Of a stretch of DNA of 36,089 nt, positions 11,043-35,998 are shown one piece after another. This stretch comes from Methanoregulaceae archaeon PtaB.Bin056. GTDB taxonomy: Archaea > Halobacteriota > Methanomicrobia > Methanomicrobiales > Methanospirillaceae. Location of the stretch: contig MVQD01000041.1 in assembly GCA_002067095.1 (NCBI GenBank), positions 1 to 36,089 of the forward strand, written 5' to 3'. A program made the position numbers and the translations under genes. The first letter of the stretch is position 1. Each line of letters starts with the position of its first letter. The notes under the pieces are model-generated. The model saw nothing but the letters and a program-made list of their open reading frames with translations. It was not told the DNA's origin and did not search any database.

Positions 11043-13034
11043 TCACATGAGGGGAGAGGCCCCGGAGAGGGAGATGTTCCCCATCAGGGGTGGGACCTGG
11101 AACCACCCCTGGACTGTCCCGTCTGATTGGGCAGGTTGGAGGGGGATCTCAAGCACGATGGTCTCTCCCTCCACTGGGTAGTCCTGCAGGTATCCGTAAT
11201 ACTGCAGGTACCCTTCTGCTTTCACCTGGATGATGCGAGAGGGAGTAGCGGTCACATAGACCGGGATCAGGAGCGATCCGTTCTCGACCGGTCCCCTGTA
11301 CCGTCCATCCAGGAAGACATGCGCCCCTTCTGCGGGACACCTTACCTCGAAGAATCCCACACTTCCTCCAATCACAGGCGGACCGACACTCACCACCCCT
11401 TCTGTTACTGCCTCCGTCACGCCATCATCGGCAACGATGGTGAGGCGGACTGTATAGATGCCCGGAGTCGCAAAGAGATGGCAGGGGGACGGATCCGTGG
11501 ACGTTGTCCCATCGCCAAAGTCCCATGACCAGGATGCGGGGTATCCGGTCGAATTGTCCTGGAACTGAACGCAGAGTGGTGCCGGACCAAAAGAGGTATT
11601 GGCTGCGAAATCTGCAAGGAGTGGCTCTCTTTCCCTTACACTGATGTAATGCTCCCTGCAGGAGAGATTGCACCCGCCTGTCCCGCATACTTCGAGGCTC
11701 ACCGTGTAGATCCCTGCCCGCAAGTAGGTATGCACGGGGGAGGATTCAAATGACGTCACATTGTCGCCAAATTCCCAGAGCATGCCGGAGACTTCACCCG
11801 TGGAGTGGTCCTGGAAAAGGACTGCAAGTGGCGCATACCCTTCGGTTCGGTTCGCGGAAAAATCTGCCACAGGGGTCGGGACCAGGGAGAAGGTCCCCCA
11901 CAGAGTGTGGTTTGCGGTCACATTTTCAAACAGGACAGGAGATTTGGCATCATACCAAACCCCATCGATCTCTACTCCGTCCAACCGGTATCCGGGGTCA
12001 GGAGAGAAGGTGAACACAGCCGAATCCCCGCCCCCTACCCTCACGCTCCCCGAAGGATACACGGAGCCATGGGTTCCCGTACCGGCGGTGATCGTATACG
12101 CCGGTTCCTCTTCGAGGATGATGTATGCAAGGTGGGACGGCTGGGTCGAGGAGACGAGCACCTCCCCTTCCCATGGGAAATAACCCTCTGCAGAGACGCG
12201 GAGGCGGTGGATCCCCTCTTCGAGCGGCAGGCACAGGGGAGTTGCACCGAGGATGCTGCCGTCAACCGTCACCTGCGCGCCGCCAGGTTCTGAGTCGGTG
12301 CAGAGCATCCCCGGCTCCCCTCCCGTCCCGGCATTTGCAGGGTCCCGGTCTTCGCTTCCGCCAGAGTCATCTATAAGAGTTTCAGGGGGACTCGCCGCCG
12401 GTTCTTCCGCAACGGCCGTTCCCTCCGGCCCCGGAGGTTCGGGAGAAAGCGTCGGAACGCTGGTTATTGGAAATACCATCTCCTGGGGCAGGGGAGAGAC
12501 TGATTGCGCAGAACTTTCCTGTTTGGGGAGATATTCAGCCGGCTCCCGTACCAGCAGGGTCCCGTCTATCCCTGGCAGGAAATACGGCGACCCGACCTCG
12601 TCCTTCATCCCACGGACCACCACCTGGATCCCGCAGGTTCCCGAGGCATCCCCGCGGATGGTAAGCGTGGCGAGGACCACCTCGCTCTGTCCGGGTCCGA
12701 CCTTCCTCCCGGTATCGGAACCTTTCAGGATGACGGAATCTGCCGGCACCTTGCTCTTGCTGTTCAGGTTCGCCCACGATGGAAATCGTATGCCCGTGAT
12801 CTCGCCGATTGCAGGGTTCTCAAGTGCCACCTGCACCTCGAACTCCGAAAGGCCGGGTGAGACCCGGTCAAGGATAAGCGTGCATTCCCCTGTCTCTCCA
12901 GGGGATTCGATACTGCAGGGGGTCGCCCTTATCTCTGATCCCGCCGCATGCCCGCATGCTGCAAGCACCAGGACCAGCAACACCGCCCCTGCATACTCCC
13001 ACCATCTTTCTCTGTCCCTCCATGCGCTCTGCAT
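11043..13034 (-). CDS. Large exported protein with cohesin-like, PEGA, repeat and two PKD domains
   Basis: A 663-residue envelope protein. A hydrophobic signal (GAVLLVLVLAACG) ends in a lipobox-like LAAC at C27. Then come: a cohesin-like beta domain (about 33-155), a Ser/Pro/Glu-rich linker (160-245), a PEGA domain (SEPGGAQVTVDGSILGATPL), a Gly-rich beta repeat with YTITAGTGTHGSVYPSG and FSPDPGYRLDGVEIDG, two PKD domains (WEFGDN with PVHTYLRAGIYTVSL, and WDFGDG with CHLFATPGIYTVRL), and a final PEGA-like domain with a VFLDGRYRG turn. No C-terminal anchor is visible. PKD and PEGA domains usually mediate surface adhesion or scaffold binding. The start at 13034 has GGAGGAAT upstream; a longer frame to 13079 lacks such a site. 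Function is unknown beyond surface localisation. Confidence 0.85.
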   Translation of the reverse strand: MQSAWRDRERWWEYAGAVLLVLVLAACGHAAGSEIRATPCSIESPGETGECTLILDRVSPGLSEFEVQVALENPAIGEITGIRFPSWANLNSKSKVPADSVILKGSDTGRKVGPGQSEVVLATLTIRGDASGTCGIQVVVRGMKDEVGSPYFLPGIDGTLLVREPAEYLPKQESSAQSVSPLPQEMVFPITSVPTLSPEPPGPEGTAVAEEPAASPPETLIDDSGGSEDRDPANAGTGGEPGMLCTDSEPGGAQVTVDGSILGATPLCLPLEEGIHRLRVSAEGYFPWEGEVLVSSTQPSHLAYIILEEEPAYTITAGTGTHGSVYPSGSVRVGGGDSAVFTFSPDPGYRLDGVEIDGVWYDAKSPVLFENVTANHTLWGTFSLVPTPVADFSANRTEGYAPLAVLFQDHSTGEVSGMLWEFGDNVTSFESSPVHTYLRAGIYTVSLEVCGTGGCNLSCREHYISVREREPLLADFAANTSFGPAPLCVQFQDNSTGYPASWSWDFGDGTTSTDPSPCHLFATPGIYTVRLTIVADDGVTEAVTEGVVSVGPPVIGGSVGFFEVRCPAEGAHVFLDGRYRGPVENGSLLIPVYVTATPSRIIQVKAEGYLQYYGYLQDYPVEGETIVLEIPLQPAQSDGTVQGWFQVPPLMGNISLSGASPLM

Positions 13035-13109
13035 GACAATTCCTCCATCACTCCGCCCCAATCCGTCTCTCCTCCCCATGAGATTGCGGTCTTGAGATCT
13101 GCGGAATTC

Positions 13110-30779: not shown

Positions 30780-30984
30780 GAAGAGCCGGATCGTGTCTCC
30801 TGCAGGGTATTTTTGAAAATTCCAGTTTATTTGGGTTTTTCGCAACGCGGGGGGTCTTCGGTACCTCCGCCCAGTTTTCCGGCAAACAGGGATCACAACG
30901 CACCTTTCCATGCCCAGGGATTCTGACCATTACAAGATTTATCATATAACGCAGCCACATACTACAGCAGGAATTGAGAATTTT
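30780..30984 (+). promoter_or_regulatory. Spacer with CMD terminators and the fae-hps promoter
   Basis: T-rich stretches GTATTTTTG and GGGTTTTTCG near 30810-30840 are likely 3' ends of the preceding gene. TTTATCATATAA at 30938-30949 is a TATA box for fae-hps, with a start near 30970 and a leader of about 15 bases including AGGA at 30969-30972. No gene is seen here. Confidence 0.45.
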
Positions 30985-32166
30985 ATGTATCTTATAGGTG
31001 AAGCACTGGTGGGCGACGGGCCGGAACTGGCCCATGTCGACCTGATTCTCGGGGACAAGGAGGGACCGGTAGGGGCCGCATTCGCAAACGCCCTCTCCCA
31101 GCTCTCTGCCGGGCACACCCCGCTCCTCGCGGTGGTCCGCCCAAACCTCCTCGCAAAGCCGGCAACACTGATCATCCCCAAGGTGACGCTGCGCAAGGGG
31201 GTCCAGATCAAGGAGATGTTTGGTCCAGTCCAAGCCGCGGTGGCAAAGGCCGTCGCCGACTGCGTGGAGGAAGGGCTCTTCGGGAAGTCGGATCTCGAAT
31301 CCCTCGTTATCATGGCAAGCATCTACCTCGATCCCACAGCAGCGGACTATAACAAGATCTACCGGTACAACTACGGGGCCACGAAACTCGCACTCTCCAG
31401 GGCGATTGAGAAGTTCCCTGACCAGAAGACCCTTATTTACGAGAAGGACCGGGCCGCCCACGCGGTCATGGGGTTCAAGGTCCAGAGGCTCTGGGACCCG
31501 CCGTACCTGCAGGTCGCCCTTGACCTCGTGGACATGAACAAGGTGCACTCCGTCCTCGCAGAGCTCCCGCAGAACGACCACCTGATCATCGAGGCCGGGA
31601 CACCCCTGATCAAGCGGTTCGGCCTCTCGATCATCCCGGAGATCCGGAAGGTCAGGCCGAACGCCTTCATCATCGCCGACATGAAGATCCTCGACACAGG
31701 GAACCTCGAGGCCCGCATGGCCGCAGACGCCTCCGCCGACGCCGTGGTCATCTCGGGCCTTGCACCCCTTCCCACCCTCGAGAAGGCGATCGCCGAGGCA
31801 AAGAAGACCGGCATTTACTCGGTGATAGACATGCTCAACGTCCCCGAGCCCCTGAAAGTAATTAAAGCGCTCAAGGTCAAGCCCGACATCGTCGAACTTC
31901 ACCGGGCGATCGACGCTGAGAGCTCCGAGCATGCCTGGGGAGACATTCCCGCCCTGAAGAAGGCTGCCGGGGGCAAGCTTCTTGTCGCCACCGCCGGGGG
32001 CATCCGGGTCGACGGCGTGAAGAAGGCGTTTGCTGCCGGTGCGGACATCATCGTGGTCGGTCGGGCAATCACGGCGAGCAAGGACGTGCACACCGCCGCG
32101 GACTTATTCCTGGAACAGATGAACAAGGAAGAGATTGACCAGTTCCGGGTGATGACCGATTTCTAG
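30985..32166 (+). CDS. fae-hps: Bifunctional formaldehyde-activating enzyme / 3-hexulose-6-phosphate synthase
   Basis: A 393-residue fusion. Residues 1 to about 160 are Fae, which condenses formaldehyde with tetrahydromethanopterin; catalytic H17 is in ELAHVDLILG. Residues about 170-393 are hexulose-6-phosphate synthase, an OMP decarboxylase-fold barrel: IEAGTPLI, then IIADMKILDTG (the D-x-K-x-x-D catalytic set) and the C-terminal phosphate loops ATAGGI and VVGRAI. In methanogens without the oxidative pentose pathway, the reverse reaction supplies ribulose 5-phosphate from fructose 6-phosphate and passes formaldehyde to the C1 carrier. The ATG at 30985 gives the characteristic MYLIGEALVG start; the upstream open frame contains the promoter. 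Confidence 0.97.
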   Translation: MYLIGEALVGDGPELAHVDLILGDKEGPVGAAFANALSQLSAGHTPLLAVVRPNLLAKPATLIIPKVTLRKGVQIKEMFGPVQAAVAKAVADCVEEGLFGKSDLESLVIMASIYLDPTAADYNKIYRYNYGATKLALSRAIEKFPDQKTLIYEKDRAAHAVMGFKVQRLWDPPYLQVALDLVDMNKVHSVLAELPQNDHLIIEAGTPLIKRFGLSIIPEIRKVRPNAFIIADMKILDTGNLEARMAADASADAVVISGLAPLPTLEKAIAEAKKTGIYSVIDMLNVPEPLKVIKALKVKPDIVELHRAIDAESSEHAWGDIPALKKAAGGKLLVATAGGIRVDGVKKAFAAGADIIVVGRAITASKDVHTAADLFLEQMNKEEIDQFRVMTDF

Positions 32167-32282: not shown

Positions 32283-33278
32283 TTACAGCCGGCGGACGCC
32301 GTCCTGGATCGCCATCGACTTGCTGAACGCTTCGATCACGCCTGACGCGGTGGTCTTCTCCTTGTAGACGAGGTCAACACCCTGCATGAAGCCTGTCCTG
32401 CCATTTCCGCCAACATATGGGATAGCGCCATCACCGGTATCGTAGTTCCAGAACATAATACCGGAACCACCGAAATCTTCATAAGGATAATACCCTGCAG
32501 TCCTGCCTTCCATGACATGGGTGTTGATCCATGCTGCGGCAGAGCCTGTTCCGGAAAGCCCAACGGAGTAGCTGGCCTGGGTCGGGACATCCGCGGACTT
32601 CGCGATGAAGTTCGTGCCGGCCTGGGTCACTTCAGAGACCTGGCTACCGGTGAAGGAGCTCCCCATCTCGTAGACGTTGCAGTACGGCGGGATGAAGCCC
32701 TGGTCTCCGGTTGCGAACGGACAGAGGAACCGGTCGGCGGCGACCGAACCCTGGCTCACCAGGTCGAGCAGGAGACTCTCTGAAGTGGTTGCCCTTCCCA
32801 TCGCATCAGGGAATGCAACAAAGTCGAACTGTTCAGTTGAAGCAAAGTTCTTCTGGTTTGCAACCTTGTTGCCAGTGTCCATGGACTGCATCTCGTTGAA
32901 CTCGGAGTACCCATTGTCGGCAAGCACCGATTCGGTGTATGACATCACAGCCTGGCGCTCTGGTAATGAAAGCAACTCAATACCTGGGCCATACACAAAG
33001 TGAGCCCAGTGATTACTTGGATTCATACCAGAAATGAACCCTCCCCCATCATAGGCTGGAGTGTGACCGAGTGCCCCCAAAGGCGGGTTGTCACGGAGAT
33101 CCATGGTGGATATGGTCATCACGACCGATTCAGAGTTTGACATCGTGCCCATGACGACTACTCCGGTGGTGGTAGATATTCCCTGGGTCTCGGTGGTCGC
33201 GTTGATCGGGTCGGCCGCCATTGCAAGTCCTATAACGAGGACGATAAGTGTGAGAACAACAATTGAGATTTTTTTCAT
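32283..33278 (-). CDS. Exported protein of unknown function, paralogue 1
   Basis: A 331-residue protein with a Sec-type signal (MKKISIVVLTLIVLVIGLAMA, cut after AMA) and no lipobox or C-terminal anchor. I do not recognise the family. It shares almost all of its sequence with two tandem neighbours: ATTETQGI-TTTGVV near the N-terminus, LPERQAVMSYTESVLADNGY, a Cys pair C186/C200 (CPFATGDQGFIPPYC), LSGTGSAAAWINTHVMEGRTA, and the C-terminal VDLVYKEKTTASGVIEAFSK. Two windows differ wholly: residues 72-104 and about 264-297 (aromatic- and Gly-rich). A secreted or S-layer-associated protein is the likely class. A 5'-terminal stem-loop and GGGGGAAT precede the ATG. The core is closest to paralogue 3. 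Confidence 0.85.
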   Translation of the reverse strand: MKKISIVVLTLIVLVIGLAMAADPINATTETQGISTTTGVVVMGTMSNSESVVMTISTMDLRDNPPLGALGHTPAYDGGGFISGMNPSNHWAHFVYGPGIELLSLPERQAVMSYTESVLADNGYSEFNEMQSMDTGNKVANQKNFASTEQFDFVAFPDAMGRATTSESLLLDLVSQGSVAADRFLCPFATGDQGFIPPYCNVYEMGSSFTGSQVSEVTQAGTNFIAKSADVPTQASYSVGLSGTGSAAAWINTHVMEGRTAGYYPYEDFGGSGIMFWNYDTGDGAIPYVGGNGRTGFMQGVDLVYKEKTTASGVIEAFSKSMAIQDGVRRL

Positions 33279-33297
33279 AATTCCCCCTAAATTTTAC

Positions 33298-33317
33298 ACT
33301 GAATGTATCCATTCAGT
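33298..33317 (-). promoter_or_regulatory. Stem-loop at the predicted 5' end of paralogue 1 mRNA
   Basis: ACTGAATG and CATTCAGT form a perfect eight-base-pair stem with a four-base loop. The TATA box at 33350-33343 predicts transcription starting at about 33320, so the stem would begin within a few bases of the mRNA end. An RBS-like AGGGGGAAT follows before the ATG at 33278. Confidence 0.5.
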
Positions 33318-33319
33318 AT

Positions 33320-33382
33320 AAGACTGGTTTTTTGATTTGGGTATTATATACCTATTCAAGCACTTCTCAAAGAACCAGTCTT
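33320..33382 (-). promoter_or_regulatory. Promoter of paralogue 1 with flanking inverted repeats
   Basis: The TATA box TATATAAT (33350-33343, within GGTATATAATACC) sits between two perfect ten-base inverted repeats: AAGACTGGTT at 33320-33329 and AACCAGTCTT at 33373-33382. The same ten bases occur beside the TATA box of paralogue 2. A shared regulator binding site is a reasonable inference. Confidence 0.5.
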
Positions 33383-33491
33383 TTTCATGGATGAGGTTTC
33401 ACTTCAGAGCAATCCAGTCATAATGAACTTTTATTCCCTAATTCACGGAATCCCAATACAATAGACATGAATCATTCCGGAAATCGGTAAC
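33383..33491. other. AT-rich spacer between paralogues 1 and 2
   Basis: No gene or clear secondary structure is seen. It lies upstream of the paralogue 1 promoter and downstream of the paralogue 2 terminator. Confidence 0.4.
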
Positions 33492-33513
33492 AAAAAGAAA
33501 AGGGGCTAGCCCT
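33492..33513 (-). terminator. Terminator of paralogue 2
   Basis: Palindrome GGGCTAGCCC (33503-33512) followed on the minus strand by CTTTTCTTTTTG, about 30 bases after the stop at 33541. A compact hairpin with a U-rich tract. Confidence 0.5.
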
Positions 33514-33540
33514 CCTTATTCATCTCTCAATACTAGCAGA

Positions 33541-34512
33541 TTACAGCCGACGAACTGCATCCTGGATCGCCATCGACTTGCTGAACGCTTCGATCACGCC
33601 TGACGCGGTGGTCTTCTCCTTGTATACAAGGTCGACGCCCTGCATGAAGCCGGAACCGCCCAGGCTCTCGTATGGGAATGAACCTGTGTTCATGTCGTAG
33701 TTCCAGAACGCGATAGCCCAATAATTACCCTCGGCTTCTGGATAATATGCGGCAGTCCTGCCTTCCATGACATGGGTGTTGATCCATGCTGCGGCAGAGC
33801 CGGTTCCGGAGAGGCCCACAGAGTAGGCTGCCTCGGTCGGGACATCCGCGGACTTCGCGATGAAGTTCGTGTTCGCCTGGGTAATCTCGGAGACCTGACT
33901 TCCGGTGAACGAGCTGCCCATCTCATATACATTGCAGTACGGAGGGATGAACCCCTGGTCTCCGGTGGCAAACGGACAGATGAACCGGTCAGCGGCGAGC
34001 GATCCCTGGCTCACCAGGTCGAGCAGGAGGCTCTCGGAGGTGGTTGCCCTTCCCATCGCATCCTCGAAGGACACGTAATCAAACTGCTCGGTCGACTTGA
34101 AGTTGTCCTGGTTCACCACCTTGTTGCCGGTGTCCATGGACTGCATCTCGTTGAACTCAGAGTACCCGTTGTCAGCGAGAACTGACTCGGTATAGGACAT
34201 CACGGCCTGGCGTTCAGGTAATTGAACTTGAGGACCAAAGGGATCTTCAGGGTCGTTAAGCCAGAGGTTATTGGGATTCACACCAGGGATTAATCCTTCA
34301 CCTTGTGCACCTAACGGCGGGTTGTCCCTGAGATCCATGGTGGATGCGGTCATCACGACAGTCTCCGAATTCGACATCGTGCCAAGGACAACCACTCCTG
34401 TCGTGGTAGCAATGCCCTGGGTCTCGGTGGTCGCGTTGATTGGGTCAGCCGCTATTGCAAGTCCTACAATGAGAACGGCAAAGGCGAGAACAGTAAGTGT
34501 GAGTTTCTTCAT
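33541..34512 (-). CDS. Exported protein of unknown function, paralogue 2
   Basis: A 323-residue protein of the same three-member family, with signal MKKLTLTVLAFAVLIVGLAIA cut before ADP. Conserved blocks and the Cys pair (C179 and C193) match paralogue 1; it is slightly more diverged in the core (VVNQDNFKSTEQFDYVSFEDA, EITQANTNF). Variable window 1 (residues 72-97) is shorter, with NPNNLW; variable window 2 (about 257-287) reads PEAEGNYWAIAFWNYDMNTG then SFPYESLGGSGFM. No repeats, transmembrane anchor or enzyme motif. RBS GAGTGATG is near the ATG. The gene stands between its own promoter and terminator. Confidence 0.85.
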   Translation of the reverse strand: MKKLTLTVLAFAVLIVGLAIAADPINATTETQGIATTTGVVVLGTMSNSETVVMTASTMDLRDNPPLGAQGEGLIPGVNPNNLWLNDPEDPFGPQVQLPERQAVMSYTESVLADNGYSEFNEMQSMDTGNKVVNQDNFKSTEQFDYVSFEDAMGRATTSESLLLDLVSQGSLAADRFICPFATGDQGFIPPYCNVYEMGSSFTGSQVSEITQANTNFIAKSADVPTEAAYSVGLSGTGSAAAWINTHVMEGRTAAYYPEAEGNYWAIAFWNYDMNTGSFPYESLGGSGFMQGVDLVYKEKTTASGVIEAFSKSMAIQDAVRRL

Positions 34513-34531
34513 TACATCACTCTTATAATGT

Positions 34532-34551
34532 ATGCTGATCTTTCACAGCAT
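34532..34551 (-). promoter_or_regulatory. Stem-loop at the predicted 5' end of paralogue 2 mRNA
   Basis: ATGCTG (34532-34537) and CAGCAT (34546-34551) form a six-base-pair stem with an eight-base loop. The TATA box at 34583-34575 predicts a start at 34552-34556, so the stem begins at the mRNA end. The layout and stem sequence recur upstream of paralogue 3. Confidence 0.5.
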
Positions 34552-34574
34552 CAAGTTGAGAATATGAGAGGGGA

Positions 34575-34591
34575 CTATATAAAGACTGGTT
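34575..34591 (-). promoter_or_regulatory. Promoter of paralogue 2 with the shared AACCAGTCTT motif
   Basis: TTTATATAG (34583-34575) is the TATA box. AACCAGTCTT (34591-34582) directly precedes and overlaps it, in the place of the BRE. The same ten bases occur twice around the paralogue 1 promoter. Confidence 0.5.
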
Positions 34592-34971
34592 CATTTTTTT
34601 TAGAGATGACTCACTTTCATTCCCCTATGCTCTCTCGTGTATTCACCTCAACTGGATGAATACTCCGACCCCCTTTCATATTACAAATTAAAATTGGGAA
34701 TATACTGCTCTCAATCCAGTAAGGTGCAGTTACTGAAGCTGGTTCCATTTACCTCTCCAAAATTTGCTAAAAATTAAAAGTTGACCGGATCAGTCCAGAA
34801 AGAATAATCGCGAATTTGGGAGACTCCCAGTTTGATTAAAAATATGCCCGCTCTTTCTGATATTGTGTCTTCAAATTAGGTTCTCCCGAAACAGGTCCTG
34901 GTAACGAATCCCCTAAAAAAGATTAGGAGCTTTTCGGAGCCCCAGTTGGTCTTTGATCAATGCTGAGATAT
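34592..34971. other. Gene-free AT-rich spacer between paralogues 2 and 3
   Basis: Nearly 400 bases without a plausible gene. It holds TGGGAGACTCCCA, an imperfectly looped palindrome at 34817-34829, a loose copy of the promoter motif (AAGCTGGTTCC near 34735), and at about 34914-34921 a minus-strand T-run that may be the end of paralogue 3. The base composition is lower in GC than the rest of the window. Confidence 0.5.
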
Positions 34972-35958
34972 TTACAGCCGGCGAACTGCATCCTGGATTG
35001 CCATCGACTTGCTGAACGCTTCGATCACTCCGGACGCGGTGGTCTTCTCCTTGTAGACGAGGTCGACGCCCTGCATCCAGCCACCACCTGCGGGAACTCC
35101 AAGCCATGGGTCTCCCGTGTTCATGTCATAGTTCCAGAAACTTATCCATGACCACCCGTCATCCTCGTCATAATAATACCCAGCAGTCCTGCCTTCCATG
35201 ACATGGGTGTTGATCCATGCTGCGGCAGAGCCGGTTCCGGAAAGGCCAATGGAGTAGCTGGCCTGGGTCGGGACATCCGCGGACTTCGCGATGAAATTCG
35301 TGCCGGCCTGGGTCACTTCAGAGACCTGGGTTCCAGTGAAGGAGCTCCCCATCTCATAGACGTTGCAATACGGCGGGATGAAGCCCTGGTCTCCGGTTGC
35401 GAACGGACAGATGAACCGCTCCGAAGCATCCGATCCCTGGCTCACAAGGTCAAGCAGGAGGCTCTCGGAAGTAGTTGCCCTTCCCATCGCATCAGAGAAT
35501 GCGACAAAGTCGAACTGCTCGGTGGAAGCAAAGTTCTTCTGGTTTGCAACCTTGTTACCGGTGTCCATGGATTGCATCTCGTTGAACTCAGAGTACCCGT
35601 TGTCAGCGAGAACGGACTCGGTATAGGACATCACAGCCTGTCGTTCGGGTAAAGAAAGCCAAGCCCAACCATCAATCAGTAGATGATCCTCGACTCCCCA
35701 GTTATTGTTTGGACTTTCACCTGGTTCTAAATCTACGTCTATTAAACCTAATGCACCCAGAGGCGGGTTATCACGCAAATCCATTGTGGATGCGGTCATC
35801 ACGACCGATTCAGAGTTTGACATCGTTCCCATGACGACAACTCCGGTGGTGGTAGCTATTCCCTGGGTCTCGGTGGTCGCGTTGACAGGATCGGCTGCCG
35901 TTGCCATCCCAATGACAAGAATTGCGAGGGTGAGAACAACAATTACAAGTTTCTTCAT
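34972..35958 (-). CDS. Exported protein of unknown function, paralogue 3
   Basis: A 328-residue member of the same family, signal MKKLVIVVLTLAILVIGMATA cut before ADP. Its core is nearly the same as paralogue 1 (VANQKNFASTEQFDFVAF, EVTQAGTNF) with the Cys pair conserved. Variable window 1 (residues 72-102) contains SPNNNWGVED and WAW; window 2 contains DEDDGWSWISFWNYDMNTG followed by DPWLGVPAGGGWM. As in the others, the C-terminus ends IQDAVRRL without anchor. RBS GGAGTGATG is seven bases before the ATG. More copies may exist beyond the right edge of the window. Confidence 0.85.
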   Translation of the reverse strand: MKKLVIVVLTLAILVIGMATAADPVNATTETQGIATTTGVVVMGTMSNSESVVMTASTMDLRDNPPLGALGLIDVDLEPGESPNNNWGVEDHLLIDGWAWLSLPERQAVMSYTESVLADNGYSEFNEMQSMDTGNKVANQKNFASTEQFDFVAFSDAMGRATTSESLLLDLVSQGSDASERFICPFATGDQGFIPPYCNVYEMGSSFTGTQVSEVTQAGTNFIAKSADVPTQASYSIGLSGTGSAAAWINTHVMEGRTAGYYYDEDDGWSWISFWNYDMNTGDPWLGVPAGGGWMQGVDLVYKEKTTASGVIEAFSKSMAIQDAVRRL

Positions 35959-35977
35959 TACATCACTCCTATCATGA

Positions 35978-35998
35978 ATGCTGACATTCTCGCAGCAT
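35978..35998 (-). promoter_or_regulatory. Stem-loop at the predicted 5' end of paralogue 3 mRNA
   Basis: ATGCTG (35978-35983) and CAGCAT (35993-35998) form the same six-base-pair stem as upstream of paralogue 2, with a nine-base loop of different sequence. The TATA box at 36030-36022 predicts a start at about 36000, right at the stem. Confidence 0.5.

Follow-up and report, generated by a model that had tools for sequence, protein, structure and literature searches.

Three tandem genes at the end of an archaeal contig encode members of the sheath protein (SH/MspA) family, and we consider it probable that their beta-arch cores co-polymerise, being kept alike by purifying selection and, in some lineages, by gene conversion, and that two variable regions, W1 and W2, form outward caps private to each locus. 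The sequence itself shows that the proteins belong to this family, that their linker carries the cysteines and that W1 occupies the cap insert site of Methanospirillum hungatei. The window, i.e., the whole stretch of 36,089 nucleotides analyzed here, is the entire contig C41 of a 2.24-Mb MAG (G000); among contigs with a name, those of Methanolinea sp. are closest to it. The genes of the array and the gene that anchors it are listed below.

30910-32166, plus strand: Fae-Hps fusion gene with Fae and OMPdecase domains; single-copy; synteny anchor of the array, found at the same position in G011, G002 and G012
32283-33278, minus strand: SH protein copy 1 (331 aa), the array's final gene, convergent with fae-hps; homologous by profile to M. 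hungatei SH; syntenic orthologue L045:11211-12206
33541-34512, minus strand: SH protein copy 2, 323 aa
34972-35958, minus strand: SH protein copy 3, 328 aa; the contig ends 131 bases beyond it

The original prediction of three tandem exported paralogues was borne out, as the open reading frames were confirmed at these coordinates and each has a signal-type start, judged by eye as an N-terminal MKK (K/R) and a hydrophobic stretch ending in A-x-A. The array may continue past the contig end, with further copies possibly cut off. Contigs of MAGs often finish in or near SH genes (G000:C41, G000:C72, G011:C10, G002:C2, G002:C39, G004:C118, and G004:C209); given these ends, SH copy numbers counted in MAGs are probably underestimates. 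Elsewhere in the window, a protein of 678 aa that contains PKD and PEGA domains (11043-13079, minus strand) is likely another surface protein.

The three mature proteins consist of a core, 215 of whose 237 positions are invariant, interrupted by W1 and W2 at the following positions.

32967-33071, minus strand: W1 of copy 1, cap insert 1, residues 70-104; 84% DNA identity to the syntenic orthologue, no other strong match in 13 genomes
32388-32498, minus strand: W2 of copy 1, second insert and probable part of the cap, residues 261-297; 87% DNA identity to the syntenic orthologue
34222-34305, minus strand: W1 of copy 2, residues 70-97
33646-33753, minus strand: W2 of copy 2, residues 254-289
35653-35751, minus strand: W1 of copy 3, residues 70-102
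35077-35184, minus strand: W2 of copy 3, residues 259-294; of a type common to G002:C2 and G012:C53, the fae-hps-adjacent copies there

All three copies agree at 43/48 positions of core A (copy 1 residues 22-69), 140/156 of core B (residues 105-260) and 32/33 of core C (residues 299-331), but at only 5 of 37 alignment columns in W1 and 12 of 38 in W2 (residues 261-298 in this comparison). The borders are as abrupt as had been predicted: the 20-residue flanks on each side of the two regions contain 18, 20, 20, and 20 identical positions, and the two densest 35-column stretches hold 31 and 25 mismatches, either value being reached in none of 5000 column shuffles. The anchors PxNxW and FWNYD are present as well. 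The near-identity of the copies stands for the cores at the protein level but not at the DNA level, where the cores differ considerably (dS 0.4-0.7, dN 0.02-0.08); therefore, the protein identity is mainly due to purifying selection on old copies. Since family members with neither W1 nor W2 were found in other contigs and genera, both regions are inserts. Between-copy variation at the same two sites was found in G014, which belongs to another genus, and arrays poor in these inserts, such as that of G010, have a third variable patch at the linker. Strand parity (S2-S3, S6-S7, and S10-S11) may place W1, the linker and W2 together at a single end, but strand limits were guessed for this and other connections also differ in length in distant members.

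The first reading of this DNA knew of no described function for the family, and sequence searches of Pfam, NCBIfam, PHROGs, and PDB gave no meaningful match for the proteins. A profile built from 33 family members changed this picture by matching several ORFs in the genome of M. hungatei JF-1, including a 377-aa ORF homologous across the whole core (E 2.7e-44). This ORF carries D43, T86, S144, N157, C257, C271, and K363 at the published positions (PMC10593813, PMC6242892), and its computed precursor mass is 40.5 kDa, compared with 40.6 kDa published for MspA (PMC6242892). Because these seven residues and the mass agree, the ORF is the major M. hungatei sheath protein (Mhun_2271, WP_011449234.1), and the copies of the window thus belong to the SH/MspA family (PMC6242892, PMC10593813, PMC11576556). 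Proteins of the archaeal sheath are exported and amyloid-like; their clustered, multi-copy genes occur in Methanospirillum and Methanolinea and are absent from Methanoregula (PMC6242892, PMC10593813, PMC11576556).

Both cysteines of the M. hungatei protein, C257 and C271, have counterparts in the linker of copy 1, and copies 2 and 3 also have both linker cysteines.

32679-32723, minus strand: linker of copy 1; its C186 and C200 correspond in the alignment to Cys257 and Cys271 of M. hungatei SH

The proteins of the window thus share with M. hungatei SH the whole core, the two linker cysteines, a signal peptide, and an insert at the same site. The strands bordering W1 enclose the cap insert of the M. 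hungatei protein, and T86, S144, and N157, described as exterior-exposed cap residues (PMC10593813), fall inside this insert; therefore, W1 is at the M. hungatei cap site. By extension, W2 would be a second cap segment. The layouts differ, however: M. hungatei SH carries at the W1 site a single insert of ~110 residues that was described as helical and has next to nothing at the W2 site, whereas W1 and W2 of the window copies comprise about 28-35 and about 36-37 residues, respectively. Closer to the window copies are the SH proteins of Methanolinea (PMC11576556, and two M. tarda homologues in PMC6242892), with which they share the genus-level group, clustered multi-copy genes and a cap reported to be of the beta type. 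SH genes of Methanolinea were reported to be clustered, with 3-31 copies per genome, and a cap formed by a five-strand beta-sheet was inferred for their products (PMC11576556), which would fit two beta-rich inserts. The AlphaFold model, built with 15 sequences, was strand-rich but unreliable (mean pLDDT 38, pTM 0.40). The two-insert layout, conversion of the core with conserved caps and the leader hairpin described below were not found in the descriptions of Methanolinea SH (PMC11576556, PMC6242892), and the words "conversion," "concerted," "recombination," and "hypervariable" are absent from the main text of PMC11576556. The protein family is thus already known, and its evolutionary pattern, with an evened-out core and distinct caps, is unreported.

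Gene conversion does occur in the family, as originally proposed, but it was detected in the core and not in W1 or W2. The evidence comes from the sister species, represented by genome G011, and involves its copies G011a and G011b. In the DNA tree of the core, these form a clade (100/99), and the grouping of copy 1 with G011b is rejected (AU p 0.0003); for W2, it is the grouping of G011a with G011b that is rejected (AU p 4e-75). These two neighboring G011 copies have a dS of only 0.20 in core B (bootstrap 0.14-0.30), compared with 1.4 in core A, 2.0 in W1, and 1.05 in W2, and the divergence of two single-copy genes among G000, G011, and G002 corresponds to dS 0.39-0.57. Judged by these sequence divergences, core B of the G011 pair is younger than the species split and the variable regions are old. 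In this pair, the longest stretch of unchanged silent sites was significant (p 1e-4 before correction for 21 pairs). The tree conflict together with the low dS of core B therefore indicates that recombination homogenized the core between W1 and W2, which is the reverse of cassette exchange. Most genomes compared are MAGs, in which paralogue cores can be mis-assembled.

Among the three copies of the window itself no significant conversion run was found (best p 0.076), and their core dS is similar to the species divergence, so that constraint alone could explain these copies. This, along with the core dN of 0.02-0.08 at dS 0.4-0.7, is what could be expected if the whole family were shaped by selection alone, with a core constrained by packing, cap loops that are free or diversifying and little recombination. 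As a general account this is unlikely: the conflict between the core and W2 trees is supported by strong AU rejections in both directions, core B in G011 is younger than the species split while the variable regions are old, and the low dN of these regions between orthologues (see below) means that they are not simply unconstrained.

The SH genes share a leader element upstream of the start codon, and copies of it precede all three genes of the window.

33298-33317, minus strand: leader hairpin of copy 1, ACTGAATG-GATA-CATTCAGT
34532-34551, minus strand: leader hairpin of copy 2, ATGCTG...CAGCAT
35978-35998, minus strand: leader hairpin of copy 3, ATGCTG...CAGCAT

In four genera, SH genes carry this hairpin some 37-41 bases ahead of the start codon, directly upstream of the Shine-Dalgarno sequence, and SH leaders of G000-G024 contain the form ATGCTG-AGAGTAT-CAGCAT and covarying forms of it. 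Twenty of 99 leaders have a stem reached by at most 2% of shuffles, where two would be expected. In a hand-picked set of 23 leaders, pairing was 91%, with compensatory changes at two pairs. When the 13 genus genomes were searched for a 17-base hairpin core, allowing one mismatch at most, 12 of the 13 matches were directly before SH genes and the remaining one was at a contig end; the reversed pattern had no occurrences in the same genomes. Rfam contains no family matching the array or the hairpin, which is possibly a new regulatory RNA element. Copies 1 and 2 also share an upstream element, AAGACTGGTT / AACCAGTCTT (33320-33335, 33367-33382, and 34581-34595), inverted in copy 1 around a TATA-like stretch; this possible operator was not seen in the array of the sister species.

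Direct searching across the class (232 genomes) revealed no relatives outside the GTDB family of the window (f1), and a profile search of the order added two weak matches outside it. SH copies, from several to 34 matches per genome, occur in many genera of f1; the same profile search found none in two genera (g5 and g11), complete genomes included. No close relatives were found in the viral contigs scanned. Half-size SH proteins of ~150 aa, in which the signal peptide leads straight into the C-terminal half of the core, retaining W2 and lacking the half with W1, are encoded at L008:6832-7281 (minus strand), G011:C10:31734, G002:C55:46562, G012:C42:40820, G007:C5:33419, and, in M. hungatei, L126:2308-2772. 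They are conserved between species (dN 0.01, dS 0.49) and possibly serve as ring terminators or hoop joints. Locus L065 (G010:C19:44552 and 45738) contains two adjacent SH genes with coding sequences identical except for one internal codon; either they were duplicated or converted very recently, or the identity stems from assembly.

The large number of copies per genome (up to 34 matches) could also suggest secreted ligand-binding or adhesion proteins that descended from SH and are no longer structural subunits of the sheath; moreover, most SH genes are poorly transcribed in two sheathed archaea, and adhesive roles were proposed for some of them (PMC11576556). We regard this as improbable for the window copies, in which the complete SH core, the SH leader and the pair of linker cysteines are retained and no binding domain has been added.

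The original prediction, that W1 and W2 are replaced by conversion or cassette exchange, was not supported by comparison between species. Copy 1 and its G011 orthologue (L045:11211-12206) each close their array, next to the convergent fae-hps gene. For this pair, dN and dS are 0.13 and 0.65 in W1, 0.06 and 0.58 in W2, and 0.07 and 0.71 in core B, with dS 0.41-0.47 in single-copy neighbor genes; given the ordinary dS and low dN of W1 and W2, these regions have been vertically inherited and constrained. The donor search, performed for the copy 1 regions only and in a MAG that is 95.65% complete, gave no strong match in 13 genomes of the genus besides the syntenic orthologue; other matches of W2 were short and mostly covered the FWNYD anchor. 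A target of a diversity-generating retroelement would call for a reverse transcriptase, but no match to the reverse transcriptase domain (PF00078) was found in the genome, control genomes being positive.

The comparison of synonymous and nonsynonymous change between close relatives was not uniform: in two orthologue pairs W1 and W2 changed no faster than the flanks, but in one they did. In the latter pair (G002:C55:44450 and G011:C10:33504), core dS is 0.14-0.28 and the variable regions are strongly diverged, a caveat that keeps change of these regions alive. Furthermore, the fae-hps-adjacent copy in G002 and G012 has W1 and W2 of the copy 3 type and not of the copy 1 type. Taken together, these two observations indicate that copies or variable regions turn over on longer scales.

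Antigenic-type variation, in which other copies or silent donors would supply new W1 and W2 sequences between conserved flanks, is thus very unlikely here. The abrupt borders, the length variation and the pair with a young core and old-looking variable regions would agree with it; against it are the absence of copy 1 donors from the genome and from the genus besides the syntenic orthologue, the vertical inheritance of W1 and W2 with purifying dN/dS, and a genome with no reverse transcriptase domain. Between close species, cassette exchange is largely refuted. A known system of this kind is TprK of Treponema, an antigen varied by segmental gene conversion (PMC8480903), in which conserved flanks likewise surround bounded variable regions; however, there donor cassettes replace the variable regions, whereas in the SH array no donors were found and it is the conserved core that was converted. 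Chimeric genes resulting from short-read assembly of repeated cores, which several SH arrays at MAG contig ends might suggest, are a highly improbable explanation, as the copies have many silent differences throughout the core, types of variable regions and cores recur in independent MAGs, and tandem SH arrays are also present in G024, a two-contig genome.

The preferred reading, with co-polymerizing cores and locus-private caps, can be detailed as follows. The three genes would encode sheath proteins of a Methanolinea-like methanogen, subunits of the tough protein tube that encloses its filaments. By homology, the monomers are expected to be exported; each would then fold into an amyloid-like core of two six-stranded beta sheets joined by beta-arches and polymerize together with its paralogues, forming rings and hoops that encircle the chain of cells, the rings presumably being joined by the linker cysteines. 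W1 and W2, inserted in two inter-strand connections, would together form an outward cap, similar to the M. hungatei cap, which was modeled as facing outward and contacting neighboring hoops. By the same homology, the caps may mediate hoop-hoop contacts, interact with partner cells or provide escape from viruses. The core would be held by strong purifying selection and, at least in some lineages, by between-copy gene conversion, plausibly since a single cross-beta lattice has to accommodate every copy. W1 and W2 would be too different to convert and would stay with the locus between close species, giving each copy its own surface. More tentatively, and with somewhat less than an even chance, the subunits could be modular: core conversion would maintain co-polymerization, heterology of W1 and W2 would block conversion, yielding a locus-private repertoire of caps and a mosaic outer surface, and the shared leader hairpin may coordinate or stabilize expression.

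A surface family with no Pfam or NCBIfam match can now be named as sheath subunits, and the leader hairpin makes SH genes easy to recognize by sequence in genomes of Methanolinea. The reading predicts different caps within one ring, outward orientation of the caps and conversion of the core, and would illustrate how an amyloid-type polymer may diversify its exterior without breaking co-assembly.
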